From: Malachius bipustulatus
Taxonomy: Eukaryota; Arthropoda; Insecta; Coleoptera; Melyridae
Assembly: GCA_910589415.1 (NCBI GenBank)
Contig: OU342639.1
Span: forward strand, 4,782,268 to 4,846,267
Reading direction: 5' to 3'
Length of the DNA: 64,000 bases
In this document: one piece after another, positions 27,841-61,016 of the stretch
Position numbering within the stretch: position 1 is the first letter of the stretch
Layout of the letters: each line of letters begins with the position of its first letter
Made by a program: the position numbers and the translations under genes
The notes under the pieces: model-generated
Told to the model about the DNA's origin: nothing
Database searches by the model: none
Seen by the model: only the letters and a program-made list of their open reading frames with translations

Positions 27841-30800
27841 ATGATAGTGATTTTTTTAGCCATTTTTGTCTGTAAGTAACTGATTTATTTATTTTATTCT
27901 GCATGCTTTAATTAAGTACATCATATAATAAACTACACTTAAAAAAATATATATCATAACTGTTACCTAAGACCGTTATGAAAATTTTGATGGCACCATC
28001 TTAATAAAAGACGATAACGCCAATCGAAATGAATTTTATTACCAGTGCCGACCTACTGCTCGTTCGACTATGGGGATGTGGAGGTGCTCCAAAACTACGA
28101 CGTGGAGTACGCTGCAATAACCGACAACCAGGGGGGCCAACAAGGGGGCCAGGATATGGGAAAAATTGGTTACAGCTCGGGGAGCAGTCTGAGGAGCATA
28201 GCTGAAGGTTCTTCGGACTCGGCCAACGACGCTGTTAATAACCAGGACGCAGCTGGTCATCAAGCTGCTTATGTCGCGAAAAACACACTCGCCCAAGCTG
28301 CTGGTGCGGTAAGTAATTATGACAGTATTCGATCATGAAACTATTTTTGATTCGATTATAACGAACTGGAACTTGAAATTTTCCTCGCTATAAACGAATT
28401 TCATTAAAAACGATTTTATTTTTGGTACCTTATAGATTTTTTATATTCACTCGTGTAATATTTTTATTTCAGAAAATTTAAATCACCATCTAACATTTAA
28501 TAAAAGGGAGTTTAAAATTAATTAATAAATTCATGAGCGATGCTATAATAGTAGTAGAAGAATAAGTGAGTCATAGACCGCTTAATTATCATTGCTTGCC
28601 TGTAGAACTGTGAAATGAGCATGTAATACTTTACTCATAACGATCCTGCATGAATAATGATTAACTGCTGCAAAATTATAATTAACTCAACGCTTTTTAA
28701 ATCATTTTTATGACCACCCCGCAAAAATTTGTTTAAAAAAAATCTCAATAATCGGAGGAATTCTCCTGAATTTAATTTTCCCCTCTAAAATAAAAAAAAA
28801 TCAATACGTGTTCAAGCCACCCTCACCTTTCCCTTTCCGTGCAGACTTCACATTATTTATTACACGAAATTCCGTTTTTATATTTTGACAGCTTTCAGAA
28901 ACGTTTATCGTTCCCATAAAGCGTTCAAGGACAATTTCTAGAAATTTATCTTAATCGTCTATCAAAAACGCGCCACCAATTTTCGCACATTGACACCTTT
29001 CAAGTGTCAGAAACGTAATTTTGATGCCTGTTTTAAAGCGTCGGCTTGTTTCCCAAAAATTACATTGACATGACATTGTTTTGACAATTTATAGTAGCCT
29101 CCTGTCAGAACCGTCACGTTTTTTTGATCGATTCCAGAGCGTCAGTAAGATCGATTTCGCAAAAGTGGATTTCTCATTTAGGTACTACTTATTTATAAAC
29201 TTTAGGTATTTCACAGCTTCCATTGATCAGAAACGTCAGACGATTCCATCATAGCTTTACCTGAAAATTCCTGCAAAAATTCAAAACGCAGAACGTGTGA
29301 TGAAATTTTCTGGTAAAGTGCTCATTTTATAAAATCTTCTTTTGGTAAAAGTTAAACCTGAAAGAAACGAAATGTTATGCTTCCCAGAGAGCTGTTCGGA
29401 AGGATCTATAATTTTTAAATTTTCAGAGATTTCCGGTTTTGTGAGAAACATCACACTTTTTAGTGTGGAACCTTTGCAAAAAATTATGATCCCATTTCGA
29501 CATCTTCATAATGTCACTTCCTTGCTGTGATTTTTTTACTGTCCAAACTGGCGCAGTCACCACGATGCGAAAAAGTTAAAAAGTGTGAACTTTCTCAAAC
29601 TTCTACTTTTTCAAGCAAAACGTCGACGTTTTAAATCTCTCTACGATCACCAAAAATAATTGAAATGAGCGCGATAAACAGTAATGAACAGTGATGAACA
29701 ATAAAAAACTTCTCTTTGACGCTTTACCGTTCATAGAGGCTTTCTCTCTCTGTGCTGGATGCGCCGTTACTGTCACGCTGAGTTGGGTAATCTGTACGAG
29801 TACATGACATGTCCATGAAACTAAATCAGGACAATTATTTAACAATCAATTGATGTACCGTACGTTTCGGTGCAAAAACTCTAGCCTTGAAAATAAAAAA
29901 GTACCAAACACTTCTGGACTCCGAATACCACAGAAAATATAAAAACCATGAAAAACTGTTATTGGTAACTCCGAGACCATGAAGCCGTGTTAATTTAGTA
30001 ATGATAAATATTGTCTTTTTAAAAATAACTGCCTTATTAGTAGAAGAAAGTCACACAGATCTGAAGACAATTCTTCCAATCTCCGGCTGGTACTGGAGCT
30101 CGGATACTGGAGTAGCGTTCATCTGATCATAGTTTACAGGCTTTTAAAGAATCTTTTCTCAATTCTCAATCTCGGGAAGAGGAAAAAGTCACAAGGATGC
30201 AAGTCAGGCGAATAAAAAGAAGCTGATGAGGAGGCATGAGAGAAAATGTTGCGAGAAAGGCTCATTTTTTTGGTCGATAATGCGATGCTTGGTCTCACAC
30301 GGATGACCAGACCACATTGTCGCATGGAAGTTTTTCAAGAACCTTTCGGTCAATGGGTTGATTGACTGTTTGGCATTGGGTTGCCATTGCATTGACCCAA
30401 GTCTGAAATAAAACCTGATACGATGAGATTCAATCGCAAGTAAGTTACCATGACATGACCACCATGAAGAAACCTTCTGGCTTTTGATATAGGTCGGGAA
30501 TTGCTATAAAGTTGCCTTTAGATGACAAAAAGGTCTTCTCCCAAGGAGAATGGAAACTCCTTCAACGAAGAATCAAAAAATTCGTGTTCTTTAGACTTTT
30601 AGCTCTTTGCTTCTGCTTTTAATTTTCTATAAATTGTTATTGAATTGAAGTAGAAGATGTATTGAATTAATCGGATTATCCCAAACATTTAAATTTTTTC
30701 ATGACTATTTGCTTATTAAAAATTATTCGAAGTTTTTTATGACAATTCATCAGGTAGGTACGTGGTACATTGAAGGACTGCAATAGAGTGGTCTAAATTA

Positions 30801-33800
30801 AAAAAAAAACAAAAGATAATTCAATTAGCTGCCAGAATAATTAGAATGGTTGAATCTTCACGATCATGGTTGAATGATACCCATGCACTCTCTCCTATTT
30901 GGTACCTAATCGGGTTGTCAGTTCTACGGTGCGAAATCAGGTGACCGTCAAAATATTCGGGTGCGTTCAGCAACTAAAACTTTTTTCGCCTATGGGTTCG
31001 TATCTAATTTTAATAATCATACTCATGGAATAATAGTTTCCATTCTTATTGCATGATATATTATTAGTGCATCATTAAAAATAAAAATCGATTAATCTAT
31101 TACCGTATATTGATATAGATGGTGGGGAGGGTGATTACATTATTAAAAACATAATTATTAAAACGACGTTTCAAGCATAACTTTACATAATCCTACTGCG
31201 GATCTAGATAACGTTTCCTCGGTTTAAGAAAATTTAGGTTTGGCCTGTGGTTAGTGCTAAGAATAAATATGCAATAAATATATGCAACATGCAATCTTAA
31301 TTTTGTGTAAATACCTACGCAAACGCAATATCGTAAAAGCTTTCGATCTTACTACACGGATTATAATTCTCTGGTTTACGATAATTTGAATTTTATACTT
31401 TTGTTGCGTAATAACAATGATGCATTACCATTACAATTTCGCTTTTTAATGCGTCGTTTCTTTCATTATTATTGTTACAGGAAAAAGTGTGAAATTGTAA
31501 TTGCGGACAACTAAATCTCTATAGGTAGGTAGGTACTCATTATGACATGCTTCATTTGACATCTTTCAGCTATTTGCATAAATAGTGTTACACAAGTTCA
31601 AGTAGCTTGGTCGTCCAATTTTAACAATCTCACACATTCTCGAATAAAAATGATAAAATATTAATAATTTACAGAGAAATGAAAGTAGGTACTGCATTGA
31701 GTTATGCAGTTCCAGTTCTAGTTGCACTTCACTGAAAATGACCATTTTTTTGCATTTTTTTTACAATGACTCGTACCAGGATACAGTCTAGGAAGCACGT
31801 CGAAGCTCGATCATGGCGAGTGAAATTTTACGGAAGTATTATTGAAAAATGAACTATTAATCAATCACATTGCGAACACGAAATTGTTCAGCAGTTTTTT
31901 CCTTGCGGTTGCCAACATGCCAACTTGTAATATTCTGGAATTCAAGCGACACGACTCACCTCTATCAAGCTCCAACCCAAGCCTCTTGAATTTTTACGTA
32001 CAGGTTCATATACATATACTTACAGGGTGTTTACTGTAAGGTTGGCCAAACTTCACAGGCTGATTCTTCAGACTAAAGTAATGGAAAAAACTTATATACA
32101 GGGGTGTCCGGAAACACTTCCTAAGAAAAAGATACCTACGCCTTCAAAGTTTCAAGAATTTCAGTCTAAAAATTTATTAAACGATAAAAATAATAACGGA
32201 ACAACCTTACAGTCAACACCCTGTTTATAAGAATTATTAGTAACCATTCATTATTAGTAACCATAGCCTCCGTTATTATTTTTATCGTTTCATAAATTTT
32301 TTAAATTAAATTCTTGAAACTTTGAAGGAGTAGGTAGGTCTTTCTTAGGAAGTGTTTCCGGAAATCCTGTATATATATTTTTTTTTCATTATTTTAGTCT
32401 GAAGAATCAACCTGTAAATCAACCTTACCTACAGTAAACTCGCTGTATATGTAAGCGTGTAGACGGTTGTCAAAAAGAGATTTTTCAAAATTCAAATTCA
32501 AATTCCAAGGGGTAGAAACAGCCCTTCATCATTTCTTTCTCTAATCACGTTGTGAACACGACGGTTGTCAGCTTGTATAATTTTCCGGCGACATAACTAT
32601 ATCTCATAAAATGGACTTTTGCTACTAATAAAAAAAATTGAAACGCAGGCATCAGCGACAGCTCAAGCAGCCCTAGCGGGCAAACAAATAATCCTGCAAG
32701 GACTCGAGCAGCAGTACCGTGACGCCCAAGTCGGTCTCCAAGGAGAAAAAGACCAGTTGATGCAAGCCCAAAGGGCGGCGGATGCGACTCGTAAAGCCGC
32801 CCAAGAGGCCAGGCAACATGTCAACGTTCTTACTAACACCCTCAACGCAGCCCAGGTACCCATTGACAGAATAACTTTTATTACAGGATGCGTCATTTTA
32901 GTAAAGACAAACTTTTATAAAAGACAAAAACGAAATACGAAAATAAAAAATCTCTTCACGCTAATAAAATTTTAAATTTTTTTTTCTGAATGTAACTTTT
33001 ATCTACTACCCTACTGTATTAGTACGCATATATGTATACAGGGTAAGTCATTGATATGGGAAAGCTCGATTGCACCTACACCATTAAAGATATCGAAATG
33101 AACCAAAAAGTGCTGTAAATGGGAGGGTAAAGTGCAGTTTGTAAAATTATTTTCAGATACACAGGATGTCCCAATATCGCTGTACGCCATACAACTTTGT
33201 TATTTTAAATAGGACACCCTCTATATTATTACATTTTCATATTGTTTGAGAAAAGTTAAAAAGAATGGTTTGTAAAGTTGAAGTTTGTAATGAGCGATTT
33301 ATGAGTTATAAACAAATGAAAATCGCGATTTTTCATTTTCAAAGCAGCTTATATTGAAAACGGCTCGAGATATGGAAAAACGGTTTACATGTCCCTATCT
33401 TAATTTTTAATTTGGTATCCTATCATGTAGCTGAAATTTTTATACCGAGTGATGAAAATAATCAAATTTTTTACCACTCTGTATAAAAATTTCATCCATC
33501 CAATAGGATACCGCTTGAAAAGTTAAGATAGGAACATGTAAACCGTTTTTCCATATCTCGAGCCGTTTTCAATATAAGCTGCTTTGAAAATGGAAAATCG
33601 CGATTTTCATTTGTTTATAACTCATAAATTGCTCATTACAAACTTCAACTTTACAAACCATTCTTTTTTACTTTTCTCAAATAATCTGAAGATGTAATAA
33701 AATAGAGGGTGTCCCATTTAAAATAACAAAGTTGTATGGTGTACAGCGATATTGGGCCATCCTGTGTATCTGAAAATAATTTTACAAACTGCACTTTACC

Positions 33801-34913
33801 CTCCCATTTACAGCACTTTTTGGTTCATTTCGATATCTTTAATGGTGTAGGTGCAATCGAGCTTTCCCATATCAATGACTTACCCTGTATACAGGGTGTC
33901 AATTTGAAAACTTGCCATACCTGAATTCCTCTTGAAATATTTTTCTCAAAGAAATCTCGAAACAGGTCAATTTTTAAATTTAATTTATGTTCTATTGCTG
34001 TATAATTTTTTCGATACAGGGTGTACCTTATTGGCTCAGTAATGACATTGTCTATTTTTTTTAAGGAGATACCCTGTATATTAATACATTTTCAGATTGT
34101 CTGAGAAAAGCCAGTAAATTAAGAATGGTGTTCACAATAGTTATGGCGTTTAGATTGATTTCTTTGAGAAACATTTTTTTAAGGGAGACTTCGGTCATTT
34201 TCGGGTTTCATGGTCAAGATGATAGGATGACTTTTGGTGGGTCGTCGTAAGTCCATAAATATGAATACGCAGCATAAGTTGATTCAGGTTCTCGTTTCAT
34301 GCATTTGTAACGATGAAAAGCAAAAAGAACATAAAAAAATGTAAAGTCAACCTCATAGAGAAAATTATTAAGAAAAAAAGTGACGCATTCTCTAATATAA
34401 ATAACAAATAGAGAGAGTTTAACAATTTTCAGACCGTTTTGCTTTCTCTAGGCGGCGGCGGACCACGTAACTCAAGCGGCATCGGAGGCGGCAGGTGAGC
34501 TTGCTGCCCAACAAGCCATGGTGGGCTCGGCGCAACAAAGACTCGAGCAGCTCGGCAAACAATTGCATGGGGTGCGCATCGACTTTGAAGCTACGCGAGC
34601 TGCAGCCATGAAAGCTCAAGCTGCCGCTCAAGCTGCCGCTGCTAATGCTGCGGCCGCAGCTGCTGCAGCTGCCGCCGATCTTGCTTCCAAAGCTGGTGGT
34701 AAGACGGCGGGTGGTGGTGGTGGTGGGAAATCTGGAGGCGGAGGAGGCGGCGGAAACGGAGGAGGGAAGAAAGCGGCAGGAGGTGGAGGAGGTGGAAATG
34801 GAGGCGGACAGGGACAGGGAGGGAAGTTCATACAGAGCGTTGCGGGGAATGGTAACGCTGCGTTTGTAGAAACGGAGTTTTATAGTCCGTTTTATTATAA
34901 TGAGAGTGCATGA
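27841..34913 (+). CDS. Secreted Ala/Gln-rich helical protein with Gly-rich tail (4 coding exons)
   Basis: Exons that splice cleanly are 27,841-27,871, 28,046-28,308, 32,649-32,855 and 34,452-34,913, giving 320 residues. Donors are GTAAGT, GTAAGT and GTACCC, and every acceptor is AG. Exon 1 with the start of exon 2 encodes a signal peptide (MIVIFLAIFV and onward). Residues about 12-100 are Gln/Asn/Gly/Ser-rich. Exons 3 and 4 encode a long Ala- and Gln-rich heptad-like helix (ALAGKQIILQGLEQQ, then AAQQAMVGSAQQRLEQL). The C-terminal third is poly-Ala followed by GGGGGGKSGGGG-type Gly repeats, and the end is Tyr/Phe-rich. This architecture recalls insect secreted structural proteins; resemblance to the Drosophila DUF745/Vajk cuticle group is a guess from memory. 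Introns two and three contain fold-back elements. The exact function is unknown. Confidence 0.75.
28840..29260. repeat. Degenerate repeat of TCAGAAACGT motif in intron
   Basis: CAGAAACGT or a one-base variant recurs near 28,896, 29,008, 29,105 and 29,228, roughly 100-120 bp apart, with GCGTC/GCGTT-like companions between. The interval looks like an old tandem or dispersed repeat in the large intron. No gene is seen in the rest of 28,309-30,130. Confidence 0.3.
30134..30330 (-). pseudogene. Mariner-like transposase remnant
   Basis: The minus strand reads FYSPDLHPCDFFLFPRLRIE, the characteristic C-terminal block of mariner transposases (YSPDLAPCDFFLFP in the family), which contains the last catalytic Asp. 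Sequence before it reads in a different frame and the rest of the DDE domain is not recoverable by eye, so this is a short decayed relic. It sits inside the large intron of the secreted-protein gene, antisense to it. Confidence 0.6.
30540..32020. other. Intronic AT-rich DNA, nothing recognised
   Basis: Part of the 4.3-kb intron of the secreted-protein gene. No coding exon, RNA gene or repeat was recognised. Confidence 0.45.
32021..32448. mobile_element. Fold-back element, about 428 bp, same terminus as 26,291
   Basis: It starts TACAGGGTGTTTACTGTAAG and ends with the imperfect complement CTTACCTACAGTAAACTCGC. The arms pair: GTGTCCGGAAACACTTCCTA on the left with TAGGAAGTGTTTCCGGAA on the right, and CGATAAAAATAATAACGGA at about 32,180 with its complement at 32,270. 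An extra internal terminus (CCTTACAGTCAACACCCTG at about 32,205) lies between the arms, so the element may be a nested or rearranged copy. It is located in intron 2 of the secreted-protein gene. Confidence 0.8.
33035..33891. mobile_element. Fold-back element, about 857 bp, TATACAGGGTAAGTCA ends
   Basis: TATACAGGGTAAGTCATTGA at 33,035 is matched by its complement at 33,871-33,890. Both arms stay complementary almost to a centre near 33,465: CAGATACACAGGATGTCCCA pairs with a segment near 33,760, and CGGCTCGAGATATGGAAAAA pairs with one near 33,555. The arms are about 425 bp and perhaps 95 percent alike by eye, making this the best-preserved large palindrome here. It has no coding capacity and lies in intron 3 of the secreted-protein gene. 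Confidence 0.9.
33891..34200. repeat. Decayed partial fold-back related to the preceding element
   Basis: TACAGGGTG-type ends occur at 33,890 and 34,016. ATTTTTCTCAAAGAAAT near 33,940 is inverted as ATTTCTTTGAGAAACAT near 34,157. ATTTTCAGATTGTCTGAGAA near 34,090 resembles the arm of the neighbouring element at 33,233. This is a truncated copy of the same broad family. Confidence 0.5.
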
Positions 34914-50510: not shown

Positions 50511-50522
50511 GTAGTGAAAGGT
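50511..50522. repeat. 12-bp flanking direct repeat, left copy
   Basis: GTAGTGAAAGGT immediately precedes the 450-bp-unit array and is repeated exactly at 53,170-53,181 on its other side. This is the expected signature of a target site duplication made by retrotransposition. Confidence 0.75.
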
Positions 50523-50730
50523 GCATATTAAAAAGCCGAAGTATACTCAAAAGTCACAACAAACCGTAGGTAGGTAGGTCTTAATGAGTATAAAGACAAA
50601 TCAATAGCCTGTCGTATTGGAGTCGGGTTTTAACCCATCGTCCTGACAGTTGTCAAGTCTGGAGCGCCCGAGAACCCAAATAAAGAGTTTTAGACTCAGG
50701 CAGCAACACACATCCAACCAGACTACCAAA

Positions 50731-50775
50731 AGCACGGACGGCCGTTTCGGTCTCATTAGACCTCGTCAGCGTACT
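50731..50775 (-). ncRNA. Type I hammerhead ribozyme, copy 1
   Basis: Read on the minus strand: stem I AGTACG pairs with CGTGCT (six pairs, one G-U). The core is CTGACGA. Stem II is GGTCT/AGACC closed by loop AATG. Then GAA, stem III A-C/G-T with loop GGCC, and cleavage site GTC, with predicted cut between 50,737 and 50,736. Beyond the six pairs, CCAA/TTGG and GACT/AGTC extend stem I through small internal loops. All conserved hammerhead bases are present. The self-complementary ACGGCCGT of the tiny stem III could let two copies dimerise, as known for short-stem-III hammerheads of Penelope-like elements and retrozymes. Confidence 0.88.
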
Positions 50776-51180
50776 ATATTGGAGAGTCTGGAAGGATATG
50801 AATCGCTGCATGAATCGAAAACCCTATATGGAATCTCATTCAACCGGTTACCAGTGACCTCGAGACAGAGCGACATCTATCAAGAGAAACAACAGGCTCC
50901 CAGCAAAACAAAACTCCAGTGTGTAATATGGGTTGCAGACACTCCAGGGGCTACGAGACTGACATCAAATATGCATATTAAAAAGCCGAAGTATACTCAA
51001 AAGTCACAACAAACCGTAGGTAGGTAGGTCTTAATGAGTATAAAGACAAATCAATAGCCTGTCGTATTGGAGTCGGGTTTTAACCCATCGTCCTGACAGT
51101 TGTCAAGTCTGGAGCGCCCGAGAACCCAAATAAAGAGTTTTAGACTCAGGCAGCAACACACATCCAACCAGACTACCAAA

Positions 51181-51225
51181 AGCACGGACGGCCGTTTCGG
51201 TCTCATTAGACCTCGTCAGCGTACT
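51181..51225 (-). ncRNA. Type I hammerhead ribozyme, copy 2
   Basis: Identical core to copy 1, 450 bp downstream; predicted cleavage between 51,187 and 51,186 on the minus strand. Confidence 0.88.
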
Positions 51226-51630
51226 ATATTGGAGAGTCCGGAAGGATATGAATCGCTGCATGAATCGAAAACCCTATATGGAATCTCATTCAACCGGTTA
51301 CCAGTGACCTCGAGACAGAGCGACATCTATCAAGAGAAACAACAGGCTCCCAGCAAAACAAAACTCCAGTGTGTATTATGGGTTGCAGACACTCCAGGGG
51401 CTACGAGACTGACATCAAATATGCATATTAAAAAGCCGAAGTATACTCAAAAGTCACAACAAACCGTAGGTAGGTAGGTCTTAATGAGTATAAAGACAAA
51501 TCAATAGCCTGTCGTATTGGAGTCGGGTTTTAACCCATCGTCCTGACAGTTGTCAAGTCTGGAGCGCCCGAGAACCCAAATAAAGAGTTTTAGACTCAGG
51601 CAGCAACACACATCCAACCAGACTACCAAA

Positions 51631-51675
51631 AGCACGGACGGCCGTTTCGGTCTCATTAGACCTCGTCAGCGTACT
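51631..51675 (-). ncRNA. Type I hammerhead ribozyme, copy 3
   Basis: Identical core to copy 1; predicted cleavage between 51,637 and 51,636 on the minus strand. Confidence 0.88.
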
Positions 51676-52080
51676 ATATTGGAGAGTCCGGAAGGATATG
51701 AATCGCTGCATGAATCGAAAACCCTATATGGAATCTCATTCAACCGGTTACCAGTGACCTCGAGACAGAGCGACATCTATCAAGAGAAACAACAGGCTCC
51801 CAGCAAAACAAAACTCCAGTGTGTAATATGGGTTGCAGACACTCCAGGGGCTACGAGACTGACATCAAATATGCATATTAAAAAGCCGAAGTATACTCAA
51901 AAGTCACAACAAACCGTAGGTAGGTAGGTCTTAATGAGTATAAAGACAAATCAATAGCCTGTCGTATTGGAGTCGGGTTTTAACCCATCGTCCTGACAGT
52001 TGTCAAGTCTGGAGCGCCCGAGAACCCAAATAAAGAGTTTTAGACTCAGGCAGCAACACACATCCAACCAGACTACCAAA

Positions 52081-52125
52081 AGCACGGACGGCCGTTTCGG
52101 TCTCATTAGACCTCGTCAGCGTACT
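52081..52125 (-). ncRNA. Type I hammerhead ribozyme, copy 4
   Basis: Identical core to copy 1; predicted cleavage between 52,087 and 52,086 on the minus strand. Confidence 0.88.
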
Positions 52126-52530
52126 ATATTGGAGAGTCCGGAAGGATATGAATCGCTGCATGAATCGAAAACCCTATATGGAATCTCATTCAACCGGTTA
52201 CCAGTGACCTCGAGACAGAGCGACATCTATCAAGAGAAACAACAGGCTCCCAGCAAAACAAAACTCCAGTGTGTAATATGGGTTGCAGACACTCCAGGGG
52301 CTACGAGACTGACATCAAATATGCATATTAAAAAGCCGAAGTATACTCAAAAGTCACAACAAACCGTAGGTAGGTAGGTCTTAATGAGTATAAAGACAAA
52401 TCAATAGCCTGTCGTATTGGAGTCGGGTTTTAACCCATCGTCCTGACAGTTGTCAAGTCTGGAGCGCCCGAGAACCCAAATAAAGAGTTTTAGACTCAGG
52501 CAGCAACACACATCCAACCAGACTACCAAA

Positions 52531-52575
52531 AGCACGGACGGCCGTTTCGGTCTCATTAGACCTCGTCAGCGTACT
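52531..52575 (-). ncRNA. Type I hammerhead ribozyme, copy 5 (at truncation point)
   Basis: Core and six-pair stem I are intact, but the unit ends at 52,582, seven bases beyond the ribozyme. Only the proximal part of stem I (six pairs plus CCAA) is therefore retained and the outer GACT/AGTC extension is lost. Confidence 0.83.
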
Positions 52576-52951
52576 ATATTGGGTCAGCGTACTTTATTTG
52601 GGTTCTCGGGCGCTCCAGACTTGACAACTGTCAGGACGATGGGTTAAAACCCGACTCCAATACGACAGGCTATTGATTTGTCTTTATACTCATTAAGACC
52701 TACCTACCTACGGTTTGTTGTGACTTTTGAGTATACTTCGGCTTTTTAATATGCATATTTGATGTCAGTCTCGTAGCCCCTGGAGTGTCTGCAACCCATA
52801 TTACACACTGGAGTTTTGTTTTGCTGGGAGCCTGTTGTTTCTCTTGATAGATGTCGCTCTGTCTCGAGGTCACTGGTAACCGGTTGAATGAGATTCCATA
52901 TAGGGTTTTCGATTCATGCAGCGATTCATATCCTTCCGGACTCTCCAATAT

Positions 52952-52996
52952 AGTACGCTGACGAGGTCTAATGAGACCGAAACGGCCGTCCGTGCT
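52952..52996 (+). ncRNA. Type I hammerhead ribozyme, copy 6 (inverted unit)
   Basis: Same motif on the plus strand: AGTACG 52,952-52,957, CTGACGAG 52,958-52,965, GAAAC around 52,979-52,983, cleavage site GTC ending at 52,990 and CGTGCT 52,991-52,996. Predicted cleavage lies between 52,990 and 52,991. Confidence 0.88.
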
Positions 52997-53169
52997 TTTG
53001 GTAGTCTGGTTGGATGTGTGTTGCTGCCTGAGTCTAAAACTCTTTATTTGGGTTCTCGGGCGCTCCAGACTTGACAACTGTCAGGACGATGGGTTAAAAC
53101 CCGACTCCAATACGACAGGCTATTGATTTGTCTTTATACTCATTAAGACCTACCTACCTACGGTTTGTT

Positions 53170-53181
53170 GTAGTGAAAGGT
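53170..53181. repeat. 12-bp flanking direct repeat, right copy
   Basis: GTAGTGAAAGGT, identical to 50,511-50,522. One or two edge bases may be microhomology with the element rather than target duplication. Confidence 0.75.
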
Positions 53182-56239: not shown

Positions 56240-57667
56240 TTGCAGGTAAAATTAGCGCACATAACGAATAAACCGATTAACATATCATGGAAAAATACGC
56301 GAAGAAGTATTTCGGAAATACGCCGTGGTTATGCTGCGGAAACTATGGAAACTGTGGAGGATTTGGCATCCCGCGTTACGTCAAATCGAAATGAGTCAGC
56401 GTCTGACTCAGGAATCCATGACATCATCGGAGAGACCGGGCCGGTTGCTGTGGTGGAGATGGCTAGAGGAGGGGGTATGACGTCACCCCTACTACACCAA
56501 AATCGAAGACATCTAATCCAGGAAAAATAGAAGCCCGAGTCCCCCAAGCCTCTATCTACCCAAACCTCCCCAAACCCAAACGATGCGAAATATCCCAATT
56601 CGCAGACGATACGACGATTTACTTCTCCAGCGGAAGACCGCAAATAACTCGTGAGAAAAGTCCTCCAAACGGATCTACACAACTGAAACCGATAGTTAGA
56701 AAAATCAAAACGGCGAATCGAAGTCAACGAAACCAAAACAACAGGAATCTACTTCATCAGAGACAACACCCGAGGAAGACAACCGAAATCCAAAGAAATG
56801 ACAATCAAGTGGAAAAGAGAAGCCAAATATCTAGGAGTGATCCTAAACGAATGGTTCGCTTCGAAAAGCAAGCCAGAAAGATCCGGAAAGGAATCAAACA
56901 GGCAATCGGGTCGCTCTACTCACTAATCGGCGGAAAACGCAAGGTGAGCCCGGAAAACAAAATCAAGATAATCAAGACGATACTGATACCCATCGTAACC
57001 TACGCTGGAACGACTTGGCAAGCATGCCAAAAGTCTTACAGGTCAGTTGCTCAGAGCGCAATCAACAAAGCCGCTAGGATGGCAGTCGTGGCGCCCTAGA
57101 TCATGACAAACTAACAAATCAGAGACGAAACGGGATTCGAAGAGCCGAGAGACATCATCACGAGGCAGATCCTTAAACTCGTGAAGTCAATGGAAAGCCA
57201 CGAAAACCCAACAGTGAGACTTGATTCAGCAAACGAATCAAGGAAACACAGAAACGACATCTTCAGCGTGAAAAGATACGTTGAAGAACACGGAATCGAG
57301 ATAAACCCGAAAAGGAAGAGGCCCTGTTAAGCAGCGAAAAACCAAACACCAAAAAGGGACAAAGACACCCCAGTGAGAGAGACATCCAAGCGATACCCTA
57401 AAACGCGAAACCCACCAAATTGCTGTGGAAAAACCAATCGAGAAAACCAACCCCCATAGTGACAAAGACACTCAAAGTGAAACCCCAAAGTGACAGTGAC
57501 AAATCAGTGAAGCGTGAGAAAGTGAAGGCTCCCTCGGTAACAGGCAGGAGAAATCTTGAAATCGTCATCACGGCAAGCAAATGAGGAAGCTTCAGATCTC
57601 AGATCCAGATATCAGTGAACACGAGGAGTGCAAAACGTTCTGAGCAAACCTCCATGGACCACGAAAA
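56240..57667 (+). pseudogene. Decayed Jockey-like LINE, 3' part of reverse transcriptase
   Basis: ISQFADDTTIYFSSGRPQ near 56,590-56,640 carries the FADD catalytic motif of Jockey-type reverse transcriptases. REAKYLGVILNE (about 56,818-56,853) is the palm-end motif. KIIKTILIPIVTYAGTTWQA (about 56,970-57,030) and the QSAINKAARMAV segment up to the stop near 57,099 form the thumb. Frameshifts separate these pieces and the N-terminal half of the domain is absent or unrecognisable (56,240-56,530 is uncertain). 57,100-57,667 is presumably the 3' untranslated part. The following LINE interrupted this one at 57,667, and the remainder resumes at about 61,742. Confidence 0.65.
57037..57667. repeat. 631-bp direct repeat, left copy
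   Basis: It is identical by eye to 61,111-61,741 (offset 4,074). It spans the end of the Jockey-like remnant and its 3' region, ending GACCACGAAAA, exactly where the inserted LINE begins. Confidence 0.9.
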
Positions 57668-60600
57668 CAGCAGAACGGAATTAATCGTCTGCTCAGCATA
57701 CTTCCCGGGAGATAGATCTGCCGAACAACCTCCTCCTACAATAGTGCGAAATCTGGTCGCCTATTGTCGTGGGAACAACTTACAACTTATCGTTGGATGT
57801 GACGCAAACTCGCACCACCTAGCTTGGGGGAGCACGGACATCAACGAAAGAGGTGAGTCGCTTTATAACTTTATAATAGGTGAAAAACTTATTGTGAATA
57901 ACATCGGCTCCAAACCAACCTTCGTCACAAAAAATAGACAGGAGGTACTAGATATAACATTCAGCTCAAACTTTATAAGCAATAGGATAACCAACTGGCA
58001 GGTATCCTCTGAACCTTCCTGTTCAGACCATAGACAAATAGTGTTCGACATCGAAATAGGTCATAGACCTATTGTGGAATATCGTGATCCAAAAAGAACA
58101 GACTGGAGCGGATATGAAAAATCCCTCCAGACTGGACTTGAGACCGTTATCCCCACAATAAAAAATCGTGATGATATTGAAATTGCGGCGGAACAAGTCC
58201 GGAACGCAATAATATCAGCCTATCACGAAAACTGTCCACCAAAAACGAAGAGAAACGACAGGAAAGTCGACTGGTGGAACAAAGACCTAGAGAAAAGAAG
58301 AAAAGAAGTTCGACGACTCTTCAATCGAGCTAAAGAGATGGGTAACTGGGATGAATACAGAACTAAGCTAACGGAGTACTACAAAGAGATCAGACGATCT
58401 AAAAGAGAGTCCTGGAGAAGGTTCTGCGAGAGCATCCATGATCTGCCTCGCAGCGCCAGAATTCACAAGATTCTCTCAAGAGATCCGACACAGCCATTTG
58501 GCTCGATAAAACGACCAGACGGTTCATTTACGGACTCAGAAAAGGAAACGTTAGAACTCCTAAAGGAAAATCACTTCCCAGGTAGCTCGCCTCTGTACAA
58601 TCAGTGGCAGCTGAATTCCGGAGGACGTATAAATCGACCTCAAAAATCGGAATGGAAAGTCTGCCGCTCGATCATTACAGCCAAGGCAATTGAAAACGCT
58701 GTAAAAACTTTTCAGCCTTTCAAGACACCTGGAGAGGACGGCATCTTTCCTGCCCTATTACAAAGGGGCATAAAGATACTGACGTCCTCTCTTATAAAAT
58801 TATTTAGGGCTAGTCTGGCATGGAACTACATCCCATCCAGCTGGGCGGCAACAAGGGTGGTGTACGTTCCCAAAGTGGGCCGTACAGAGCCACACCCTAA
58901 GTCATTCAGACCCATTAGCCTTACATCCTTTATACTGAAAAGTCTAGAGAGAATACTGGATGTACACATCAGGAGGAGTGTCTTAGTTTCACACCCTCTG
59001 AATGTGCACCAGTATGCCTATCAAGCTGGCAAATCAACCGATTTGGCACTTAATAACCTCGTGGGGAAGATCACCAAGTCTCTTGACAACAAAGAGATCA
59101 TGGTGGGAGTCTTCCTCGACATAGAAGGAGCATTTAACAATGCATTACCAAACTCACTGTATGAAGCAGCAGTTTCCAGAGGAATAGAACCGGTCATAAA
59201 CGGCTGGATCCGTAATATGCTAGATAGTAGGATGATAACGACCTCGATGGGAGGAGTTGAAGTCAGTTTCAGGCCGGGGAGAGGGTGCCCACAGGGAGGA
59301 GTACTCTCCCCCCTACTATGGACCCTTCTTGTAGACGACCTGCTGGCGATCCTCTCCCTATGGAGAGTTGAAGTTCAAGCATATGCGGATGACCTTGTAA
59401 TAATGATCAAAGGAAACTCCGAGAGGACAATATCCAATGTCCTTCAGGAAGTTCTTCAAGTCACGTATCAGTGGTGCGAGAGGGAGCAGATGTCTGTAAA
59501 TCCTCGCAAAACTGTTATAGTACCATTCACTAGACGAAAAAGGCTGGAAGACCTTATACCACCTACTCTTCAAGGAGTAGTTATACCATTTGCGGAGGAG
59601 GCTAAATATCTAGGTATCACACTTGATAGGAAGCTACTATGGAACTCCCATCTGGAAAAGATTATCCACAGAGCAAAGCTCTCCCTATGGAGTTGCAAAA
59701 AGATCTGTGGAAGAACTTGGGGCACTGGTCCCAAGCAAATACACTGGATATATGTAACGATCATTAGGCCAATGATCGCATATGGCTGTGTAGCTTGGTG
59801 GTCCAAAGGCTTACAAGCCTTGGCCAAAATGAAGCTGTCAAGTCTGCAAAGACAAGCATGCCTGGCAATCAGTGGAGCAATGAGCACCACACCGTCGGTG
59901 GCTATGGAAATACTTCTGGACCTTCCTCCACTCCATATATACTTGGAAAGAGAGGCCAGATGGACAACTTACAGACTACTACAGGTAGCACGAAGCACAC
60001 AAATGGCTTGTGTCATGGAACGGACCAGTCTACTGGACGACACTCAAAGTCACAGTCTTCTGGGTATGCCCTCAGACATGATGCCATACACAACAAACCA
60101 CTGCACTGCATACAACGTCCTCTTTCCAAGCAGAGACGAATGGGAGCGTAACTCAAACGACCTCCTCAAAGCAGACCTCACGTGGTTTACCGACGGTTCA
60201 AAGACTCCAACGGGAGTTGGATCCGGAGCGTACGACGCTGGGTCAAGACGAGAATTCTTTGCAAACCTGGGTCAGTACGCAACAATATTTCAGGCAGAAA
60301 TTTATGCCATTGTACTCAGCGCGCAGATGCTGGTTGAAACGCACTGCACGCAGAAAACAATTAAAATCTTCTCAGATAGCCAAGCGGCCCTAAAAGCCCT
60401 TTGCTCCATTCGTTGCAATTCCAAACTAGTATGGAACTGTCAAGCAGCACTCAATGAAGTAGCTAAAAACAATAACTTGACTCTGGTCTGGATTCCAGGT
60501 CACTCCGGCCTTGGAGAGAACGAAATAGCCGACTCTCTGGCTAGAAGAGCAACTGAATCCAAATTTACAGGACCGGAACCTGCTCTTGGCATATCCTCAA

Positions 60601-61016
60601 ATACTGCCAAAACAACAATAGACACCTGGGCGGAAAACAAGGTACTTCGGTACTGGCAAACTCTACCAGGATTAACTCACTCTAAGACCTTCATTGAGGG
60701 ACCCTCGAGAAACAGAGCTAAAAAGCTACTGGAACTCAAAAGGACTGACCTAAGGGCCCTAATAGGCCTATACACAGGACACTGCAAAGTGAACCACCAC
60801 TTACACAGGATGAATCTAGCCGATAACGCAGAATGTCGCCTGTGTTTGGAGGATGTAGAAACAGCAGAGCATGTACTATGCAACTGCCCCGCCTTGGGAA
60901 GAACCAGGCACTCAACGTTCGGAAAAGTACTTCTCTCTCCGAGAGACCTGGATACATTCACACCATCTAAGGTCATTAGCTTTTTAAAAAGCAGTGGCCT
61001 GCTAGAGTGGATGTAA
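57615..61016 (+). CDS. Non-LTR retrotransposon polyprotein: endonuclease (truncated), RT, RNase H, zinc knuckle
   Basis: One open frame of 1,133 residues without stops. Residues 1 to about 18 come from the target DNA; LINE sequence starts at 57,668. An APE-type endonuclease follows (CSAYFPG, DANSHHLAWG, SDH at 137-139) but its N-terminal third, with the first catalytic residues, is missing. The reverse transcriptase covers about 350-680, with RPISLTS, FLDIEGAF (Asp502), GCPQGGVLSPLLW and YADD (590-593). RNase H starts at WFTDGSK (Asp860) and includes FSDSQAAL and WIPGHSG. A CRLC...H...C zinc knuckle begins at 1074. The RNase H and C-terminal knuckle point to the I/LOA side of LINEs. No start codon of its own survives (the frame opens at GTG), so it is probably a dead-on-arrival, but recent, 5'-truncated copy. 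Its 3' tail is CTAAC-rich (61,089-61,110). Confidence 0.9.
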   Translation: MNTRSAKRSEQTSMDHENSRTELIVCSAYFPGDRSAEQPPPTIVRNLVAYCRGNNLQLIVGCDANSHHLAWGSTDINERGESLYNFIIGEKLIVNNIGSKPTFVTKNRQEVLDITFSSNFISNRITNWQVSSEPSCSDHRQIVFDIEIGHRPIVEYRDPKRTDWSGYEKSLQTGLETVIPTIKNRDDIEIAAEQVRNAIISAYHENCPPKTKRNDRKVDWWNKDLEKRRKEVRRLFNRAKEMGNWDEYRTKLTEYYKEIRRSKRESWRRFCESIHDLPRSARIHKILSRDPTQPFGSIKRPDGSFTDSEKETLELLKENHFPGSSPLYNQWQLNSGGRINRPQKSEWKVCRSIITAKAIENAVKTFQPFKTPGEDGIFPALLQRGIKILTSSLIKLFRASLAWNYIPSSWAATRVVYVPKVGRTEPHPKSFRPISLTSFILKSLERILDVHIRRSVLVSHPLNVHQYAYQAGKSTDLALNNLVGKITKSLDNKEIMVGVFLDIEGAFNNALPNSLYEAAVSRGIEPVINGWIRNMLDSRMITTSMGGVEVSFRPGRGCPQGGVLSPLLWTLLVDDLLAILSLWRVEVQAYADDLVIMIKGNSERTISNVLQEVLQVTYQWCEREQMSVNPRKTVIVPFTRRKRLEDLIPPTLQGVVIPFAEEAKYLGITLDRKLLWNSHLEKIIHRAKLSLWSCKKICGRTWGTGPKQIHWIYVTIIRPMIAYGCVAWWSKGLQALAKMKLSSLQRQACLAISGAMSTTPSVAMEILLDLPPLHIYLEREARWTTYRLLQVARSTQMACVMERTSLLDDTQSHSLLGMPSDMMPYTTNHCTAYNVLFPSRDEWERNSNDLLKADLTWFTDGSKTPTGVGSGAYDAGSRREFFANLGQYATIFQAEIYAIVLSAQMLVETHCTQKTIKIFSDSQAALKALCSIRCNSKLVWNCQAALNEVAKNNNLTLVWIPGHSGLGENEIADSLARRATESKFTGPEPALGISSNTAKTTIDTWAENKVLRYWQTLPGLTHSKTFIEGPSRNRAKKLLELKRTDLRALIGLYTGHCKVNHHLHRMNLADNAECRLCLEDVETAEHVLCNCPALGRTRHSTFGKVLLSPRDLDTFTPSKVISFLKSSGLLEWM

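Follow-up and report, generated by a model that had tools for sequence, protein, structure and literature searches.

Within a 64,000-nucleotide (nt) stretch of the genome of the beetle Malachius bipustulatus (contig OU342639.1, positions 4,782,268 to 4,846,267; hereafter the window, part of a 544-Mb assembly and of the contig labelled C17), positions 50523-53169 are occupied by a retrozyme, an array of tandem units each bearing a hammerhead ribozyme motif. Tandem-repeat analysis of the window returned a period of 450 and 4.6 tandem copies, and the units are near identical, with 2 substitutions in all. In the main arm (50523-52582) the RNA sense is carried by the minus strand; sense positions are counted within the unit, position 1 being the base immediately 3′ of the GTC cleavage site. 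Two features were overlooked in the original prediction, which was made from the sequence alone: the last 578 bp of the array (52592-53169) are an inverted copy, and an exact 12-bp direct repeat, GTAGTGAAAGGT, stands on both sides of the array, at 50511-50522 on the left and 53170-53181 on the right. This exact repeat, a target site duplication, indicates that the array is a single insertion. It consists of two convergent arms, each with an RNA-3′-type outer end: a minus-strand arm (50523-52582) of 4.58 tandem units, running from sense 405 to 450, through four full units and from 1 to 214, and an inverted, plus-strand arm (52592-53169) of 1.28 units, running from sense 52 to 450 and from 1 to 179. 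The two meet at a 9-bp filler, GTCAGCGTA (52583-52591), which duplicates nearby sequence. With its length of 450 bp, a GC content of 45.3% and no long terminal repeat (LTR), the unit fits the short tandem units of metazoan non-LTR retrozymes. A 126-aa open frame in the unit has no Pfam match, leaving a protein-coding role unsupported; the coding capacity by which Penelope elements are recognised, reverse transcriptase (RT) plus GIY-YIG, is likewise missing from the unit.

All hammerhead elements claimed for the units lie where they had been placed, in the order AGTACG-CTGACGA-GGTCT/AATG/AGACC-GAAAC-GGCC-GTC↓CGTGCT, in five units on the minus strand and in the inverted one on the plus strand, and the count of six type I hammerheads was borne out, with a complete core and an extended stem I in every unit. 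The minus-strand motifs occupy 50731-50775 (predicted cleavage between 50737 and 50736), 51181-51225, 51631-51675, 52081-52125 and 52531-52575, and the plus-strand motif 52952-52996 (predicted cleavage after 52990). A strict descriptor combining core, stem I, stem II and a minimal stem III matched six times in the window (5 minus, 1 plus, counted per strand), which equals the number of units, and never in 20,000 dinucleotide shuffles of the unit; the strand opposite the unit's motif carries no hammerhead. Each of the five minus-strand units was matched by all 45 positions of Rfam family RF00163 at 25.9 bits (gathering threshold 34; E 0.0024), while the best match of the inverted unit was RF02275 (HH9; 52940-53013) at 23 bits (gathering threshold 52; E 0.015). 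Searched with 4227 Rfam families, the window gave nothing at gathering level, and a single weak match to a long non-coding RNA (E 8.9) lies outside the array. The original prediction had named a covariance-model score below threshold as grounds for its own refutation, and on this check it missed. That rule may be too strict, because a hammerhead-like motif in a Penelope-like element (PLE) of the same genome (locus L073) is absent from the Rfam matches even at E≤1. According to the RF00163 alignment and the descriptor, all core positions are present and the three helices formable.

Folded as a sense 450-nt circle, the unit reached -167.1 kcal/mol (z -8.2 against 100 dinucleotide shuffles), compared with z -2.3 for the antisense circle, and stem I is prolonged into a long rod in the sense fold. 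Of 149 complete copies in the insertions fetched from the genome, about 142 still satisfy the descriptor (one locus gave one match above expectation). Selection on this fold was also considered: variants fixed within insertions keep or break pairs at 15/3 and later singletons at 33/49 (Fisher p 0.0013), yet we give this little weight because significance is lost with transitions alone (15/1 vs 32/12, p 0.15). Transitions make up 80% of the variants fixed within insertions and 51% of later singletons (40 of 41 insertions), an excess to which RNA editing or RNA-level replication might contribute.

The copy-number check proposed with the original prediction returned at least 235 matches to the unit in the assembly. 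The best 40 of 427 first-look candidates were scored, and 40 places, the window and 39 others fetched with flanks, were mapped; they hold 41 insertions. Two arms are present in 32 of the 41, always head to head with the antisense arm left, the sense arm right and both outer ends of RNA-3′ type. A 12-mer search found an exact 12-bp duplication around 26 of these 32, and the longest flanking repeat, determined for 25 two-armed insertions, was 12 bp in 20, 13 bp in 3, 15 bp in 1 and 10 bp in 1. The insertion at L043 has empty-site relatives: in two related copies of the repeat in which it sits, the sequence continues without a break through the insertion point and contains the target a single time. 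Metazoan retrozymes occur as dispersed copies flanked by target duplications of more than 4 bp, and this trait, the type I core, the extended stem I, the tandem 450-bp units and the GC content of 45% all agree with the label of retrozyme that the array had been given.

The outer ends, read as BLAST ends or as duplication-corrected ends, fall at two fixed places. In 28 of the 32 two-armed insertions the two outer ends are of different kinds, one at site A (around sense position 180, range 172-185) and one at site B (around 212, range 210-225), and the same is true of 25 of the 26 that have a duplication; A/A or B/B combinations occur in none of the 32. Were A or B chosen freely at each end, the probability of finding 28 of 28 mixed would be 2^-28. 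In the array of the window, the outer end of the minus-strand arm is site B and that of the inverted arm site A, so that we call them the B-primed and the A-primed arm, respectively, on the reading of these ends set out below. Single-armed insertions start near A in seven of nine cases (176-191) and near B in two, and three of the nine have a duplication, one of these with a mismatch. Arms reach 4268 nt, with a weak tendency of the B arm to be longer than the A arm (18 of 25, p 0.045), and inner junctions show 0-7 nt of overlap (one of 15) or filler of up to 21 nt. Constant poly(A) was found at none of the ends inspected, and a search of viral contigs (one pattern) and phages found no similar sequence. 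Some arms carry foreign DNA: at L015:689-1447 an intronless copy with an open frame, which we take to be TRAPPC2/sedlin, lies between two retrozyme arms, which could reflect capture by template switching, and sequences resembling miniature inverted-repeat transposable elements (MITEs) interrupt retrozyme arms at L042:774-1580 and L026:2449-3428. Similar ends also mark a MITE-like sequence inside a PLE arm at the L051 locus.

The 26 duplications supplied 52 half-sites, in which position -3 is a purine in 50 (p 7e-16), position -1 is C in 29 and G in one, and position -4 is A in 34. Analysed separately, either flank contains the half-site motif, and the target is a rough palindrome, YARNC^N12^GNYTR. 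A motif on both flanks would be expected from a symmetric dimeric endonuclease cutting with a 12-nt stagger.

The GIY-YIG domain (PF01541) has at least 150 matches in this genome (the best 150 of 775 candidates); many of them lie in open frames 823-855 aa long, and many belong to tandem arrays with a period of ~3.3 kb. Long tandem arrays of such PLE frames, mostly of 833-841 aa, stand at G000 C11, C9, C2:60.81M and C3:53.64M, with more than 20 matches on C11. Among the matches listed, opposite-strand neighbours within 8 kb, counted by eye, are arranged minus-then-plus in 23 cases and plus-then-minus in two, both of the latter being pairs of unequal score; judged from the order of the frames, this would be the same two-armed polarity as in the retrozyme. 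Six short two-armed PLE examples were fetched (P049, P050, P051, P052, P053 and P054). In P049 (L055+L049+L056) the arms are 99.9% identical, one of them is 32 nt longer, and the insertion lies within a 13-bp repeat with flanks CCAGGC and GTTGAG. P051, P053 and P054 are compatible with a one-sided extension of ~29-56 nt, depending on where the duplication is placed in their AT-repeat targets; unlike the P049 family, the families at L051, L053 and L054 apparently reside in TATATA-type repeats.

The end of P049 aligns with the retrozyme. BLAST matched it to sense 85-163 and then, at equal spacing, to 185-196. Global alignment of the 128 nt of P049 up to its site B with retrozyme 85-212 scored 18, against a mean of -24.5 and a maximum of 9 in 2000 dinucleotide shuffles (0/2000 reached 18), and a free local search of the last 300 nt of P049 against the whole circle scored 20 (null maximum 15, 0/500). 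The other five PLE families gave global z values of -0.9 to 1.6 and local scores at chance level. We rejected them as helpers: their ends are non-homologous, and several sit in TATA repeats, which leave the position of a duplication ambiguous. The spacing of the start sites is the same in P049 and the retrozyme: 95 nt separate the start of the module from site A, and another 32 nt separate A from B. The left half of the PLE module contains a small hammerhead-like motif, CTGTC-CTGAAGA-TGGG..CCC-GAAAC..GACAG; in the retrozyme the stems CTGTC/GACAG and GGG/CCC are kept and the core is lost (CTGAAGA to AGGACGA, GAAAC to GACTC), and, on what we take to be the core requirements, this second motif is predicted to be unable to cut. 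Outside the module, PLE and retrozyme share nothing better than E 2.2, and patterns made for the PLE motif had no match in the window and the retrozyme loci fetched by then. The alignment thus shows, at sequence level, a module homologous between the retrozyme and the end of P049, and the earlier statement that the unit resembles no described example is amended for 85-212. Descent would run from the PLE to the retrozyme. Converted from sense numbering, the module occupies 50525-50652 (minus strand; RT start sites A=50557 and B=50525), with the fossil PLE-type hammerhead at 50609-50649 (minus strand, by alignment to P049) followed by a stem-loop; further copies lie +450, +900, +1350 and +1800 along the B-primed arm. 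The inverted arm holds one complete copy (52625-52752, plus strand) and a second truncated at site A (53075-53169, plus strand).

The P049 family also shares the retrozyme's insertion habits. All three two-armed insertions examined (at the L049 locus, on C17 and on C6) have A/B ends and 13-bp matches, which we read as 12 bp plus one base common by chance, and the family's outer ends fall at B in six of the nine cases inspected and at A in three. Under one of the two possible 12-bp readings, position -3 is R and position -1 is C in each of the six half-sites; with a background of 0.104 for this combination in the fetched DNA the probability is 1.3e-6, or about 1e-5 allowing for the choice of reading. 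A family copy on C1 contains an 820-aa frame with RVT_1 and GIY-YIG and is, judged by these domains, a Penelope-like element. The ATG of this frame, whose product begins MANNY, has site A 17 nt ahead of it and site B 15 nt into the frame.

We conclude that the array is very probably a non-autonomous metazoan retrozyme that parasitises a PLE and is mobilised by the PLE enzyme, parasitism being the simplest account of these observations. Sense RNA would be cleaved at each type I hammerhead into 450-nt monomers, which would then be circularised. The rod-like circle would carry the 128-nt module from the terminal region of the PLE family with the ~823-aa RT plus GIY-YIG protein, and this protein would recognise the module and nick the two DNA strands 12 bp apart at YARNC^N12^GNYTR, stagger and motif being those read from the insertions. 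Reverse transcription of the RNA would start from each 3′-OH, with site A (~180) serving one strand and site B (~212) the other, as the insertion ends suggest; both complementary DNAs (cDNAs) would lap the circle, yielding the observed multi-unit arms from one sequence, and would finally be joined at variable inner points. One start site per strand in each A/B insertion suggests an asymmetric RNA held in a symmetric enzyme dimer. Accordingly worded, the retrozyme may have taken the RT-landing module of the PLE terminus, kept it as a folded dead hammerhead and stem-loop, and used its own type I hammerhead to produce monomers and circles. We consider it likely, further, that the element is a circular-RNA counterpart of a short interspersed nuclear element, a 'SINE of Penelope', in which a PLE module with a dead PLE hammerhead is coupled to an unrelated live type I hammerhead, that a dimeric enzyme primes from two nicked strands at fixed sites 32 nt apart on one circle, lapping it, and that the same reaction underlies the inverted pseudo-LTRs and the one-sided 'tail' of endonuclease-positive (EN+) PLEs generally.

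Several observations weigh against this interpretation. The Rfam scores stay under gathering in all six units, and the minimum free energy structure of a 72-nt ribozyme piece contains a GCUG/CGGC pairing across the core (-23.7 vs -17.0 to -18.0 kcal/mol), which would compete with the predicted active fold. As for anatomy, 9 of the 41 insertions are one-armed (among them L026, which is cut by the fetched region), a recognisable duplication is missing in 6 of the 32 two-armed insertions, and four of the 32 have one aberrant outer end: L015 (148/212), L022 (179/302), L032 (180/240) and L033 (220/150), the other outer end of each being at A or B. The best BLAST block between retrozyme and PLE has 67% identity over 82 columns at E 0.004 (0.032 against a longer PLE), and the module bounds 85-212 were chosen after the alignment had been seen. 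The tail taken alone is unexceptional among windows of the PLE locus (18 matches; best elsewhere 21), and tail-only similarity, unlike the 128-nt module, was dropped as evidence. The ends of P050 and P052 are approximate, so that two of the five control PLEs are only roughly anchored. The PLE of Anolis prefers ATT (PMC11167929), unlike the motif seen here. Finally, variants in L032 and L047 are common to only some units, and a few diagnostic sites vary within other insertions.

This last point bears on the template. The comparison covered 39 loci (L037 excluded) and 99 units, each 300 nt or longer. Units within an insertion, both arms included, mismatched at 21 of 1482 comparisons (1.4%) over 10 diagnostic subfamily sites, compared with 14655 of 43294 (33.9%) between insertions; in 100 shuffles of the locus labels the within-insertion mismatch was never under 21.7%. 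Such sharing of subfamily variants within insertions is the expectation if a single circle templated both arms, and one 450-nt circle lapped by both cDNAs would be its simplest account, a homogeneous linear multimer being the alternative template. A later duplication or a multimeric template is possible, because some diagnostic variants do vary within insertions. An alternative, which we regard as unlikely, keeps the PLE as driver and has it copy a linear multimeric transcript of an existing array, the hammerheads being incidental. It gains from the Anolis PLE, which in vitro used unprocessed RNA and inserted equally with hammerhead mutants (PMC11167929), and from L032 and L047, the two longest-armed insertions, where some variants occur in only part of the units. 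Against it, differences inside insertions are mostly singletons, the exceptions being these two and single sites in L029 and L041, and subfamily variants are common to the units of both arms; moreover, arms of up to 4268 nt would require transcripts that had escaped up to nine hammerheads.

Target-primed reverse transcription by a long interspersed nuclear element (LINE), with occasional twin priming, is a very improbable source of the insertions. Twin priming yields inverted 5′ segments, and the window itself contains a non-LTR retrotransposon whose open frame of 1143 aa (57585-61016, plus strand) covers endonuclease, RT and RNase H and might supply the enzyme. Yet inverted arms are the rule here (32/41) instead of the exception, both outer ends fall at constant positions inside the RNA, most staggers measure 12 bp and lie at a palindromic motif, the ends inspected lack constant poly(A), and the PLE family has the same end features as well as the sequence module; this explanation was dropped as largely refuted once inversion and A/B ends had proved general. 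We give very little credence to an inverted arm made by snap-back self-priming of a single cDNA, an idea put forward for rotifer PLEs on the strength of palindromes at their inverted junctions (PMC3846280). Near-palindromic inner junctions in L015 (342/344) and L037b (439/442) would suit it, as would a weak excess of inner junctions that join positions within 45 nt (10 of 26, vs about 5 expected if uniform), whereas the remaining 16 of 26 join positions more than 45 nt apart. It also predicts A/A or B/B insertions, which do not occur among the 32: A/B ends favour two-strand priming, because a copied-back arm should share the RNA end site of the first arm, and on this ground we rejected self-priming despite the excess of close junctions. 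Ordinary satellite DNA, shaped by unequal crossing-over and inversion with a fortuitous hammerhead, would match the tandem 450-bp units and has a precedent in the hammerhead satellite of an insect (Dolichopoda pDo500), but is scarcely credible given dispersed, exactly bracketed insertions with target duplications, an RNA fold specific to the sense strand and hammerheads intact in most copies, and is refuted for the 26 two-armed loci with duplications, the empty site at L043 also speaking against it.

Elsewhere in the window, the left part (positions 1-25169) consists of 25 kb of satellite DNA with a repeat length of 148 bp, for which 295 bp was called as well. At 28033-34910 (plus strand) lie three open frames matching DUF745; one DUF745 exon had 9 homologues, the named one being from the firefly Pyrocoelia pectoralis, a hint of a beetle host and indirect support for calling the retrozyme an insect one.

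In the passages available from the cited papers, the element resembles several known systems. Like the metazoan non-LTR retrozymes described by Cervera and de la Peña (2020, PMC7229834), it has a type I hammerhead, short tandem units, a GC content below 50%, no LTR, target duplications of more than 4 bp and a highly self-paired RNA, its 450-nt unit slightly exceeding the 170-400 nt of expressed metazoan retrozyme RNAs; unlike them, as portrayed in those passages, it is tied to a helper by sequence and has a two-armed anatomy with fixed RT start sites. Plant LTR retrozymes are hammerhead-processed, non-autonomous and associated with circular RNA (PMC4918200), as proposed for the present element, and differ in having LTRs, type III hammerheads and 4-bp duplications (PMC7229834). 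Dolichopoda pDo500, likened by description only, is also an insect repeat with a hammerhead, but a satellite and not a dispersed, target-duplicated insertion. EN+ PLEs (PMC3846280, PMC11167929) resemble the retrozyme in their inverted terminal arms, in the tail of 30-40 nt that one arm may carry, in having two RT starts side by side within the RNA, in the nicking and extension of both strands, which for the retrozyme would be the work of the PLE enzyme, and in a hammerhead beside the starts; this anatomy of inverted arms, one-arm tail and internal starts is what the A/B ends of 28 of the 32 two-armed insertions display. The retrozyme differs from EN+ PLEs in lacking a protein, in having a separate type I hammerhead of its own and in retaining the PLE hammerhead only in a core-less version; its target motif and 12-bp stagger also set it apart from the Anolis PLE with its ATT preference and from rotifer PLEs, which make 8-10-bp duplications.

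For animal retrozymes, PLEs have been named strong candidate helpers and circular RNA the template (PMC7229834), and retrozymes have been suggested to be possibly reduced PLEs (PMC11722881); mobiliser and template have so far been a proposal (PMC7229834, PMC11722881). The Anolis PLE protein nicks and extends both strands and uses two adjacent internal RT starts that match the genomic 'tail', the start site being equal on both strands and insertion in vitro independent of hammerhead cleavage (Frangieh 2024, PMC11167929). The origin of inverted PLE ends is unsettled: Arkhipova (2013, PMC3846280) explained them by self-priming and called for further experiments. In the open-licence PMC literature, as represented by the passages available, we found no retrozyme tied to a helper by sequence and no such insertion anatomy. 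This genome offers a matched pair, a parasite and its probable helper, with predictions at nucleotide level: starts at 180 and 212, a 12-bp stagger and YARNC half-sites. If the proposed relationship is true, it would mean hammerhead turnover, with the borrowed ribozyme disarmed while a second one drives processing.

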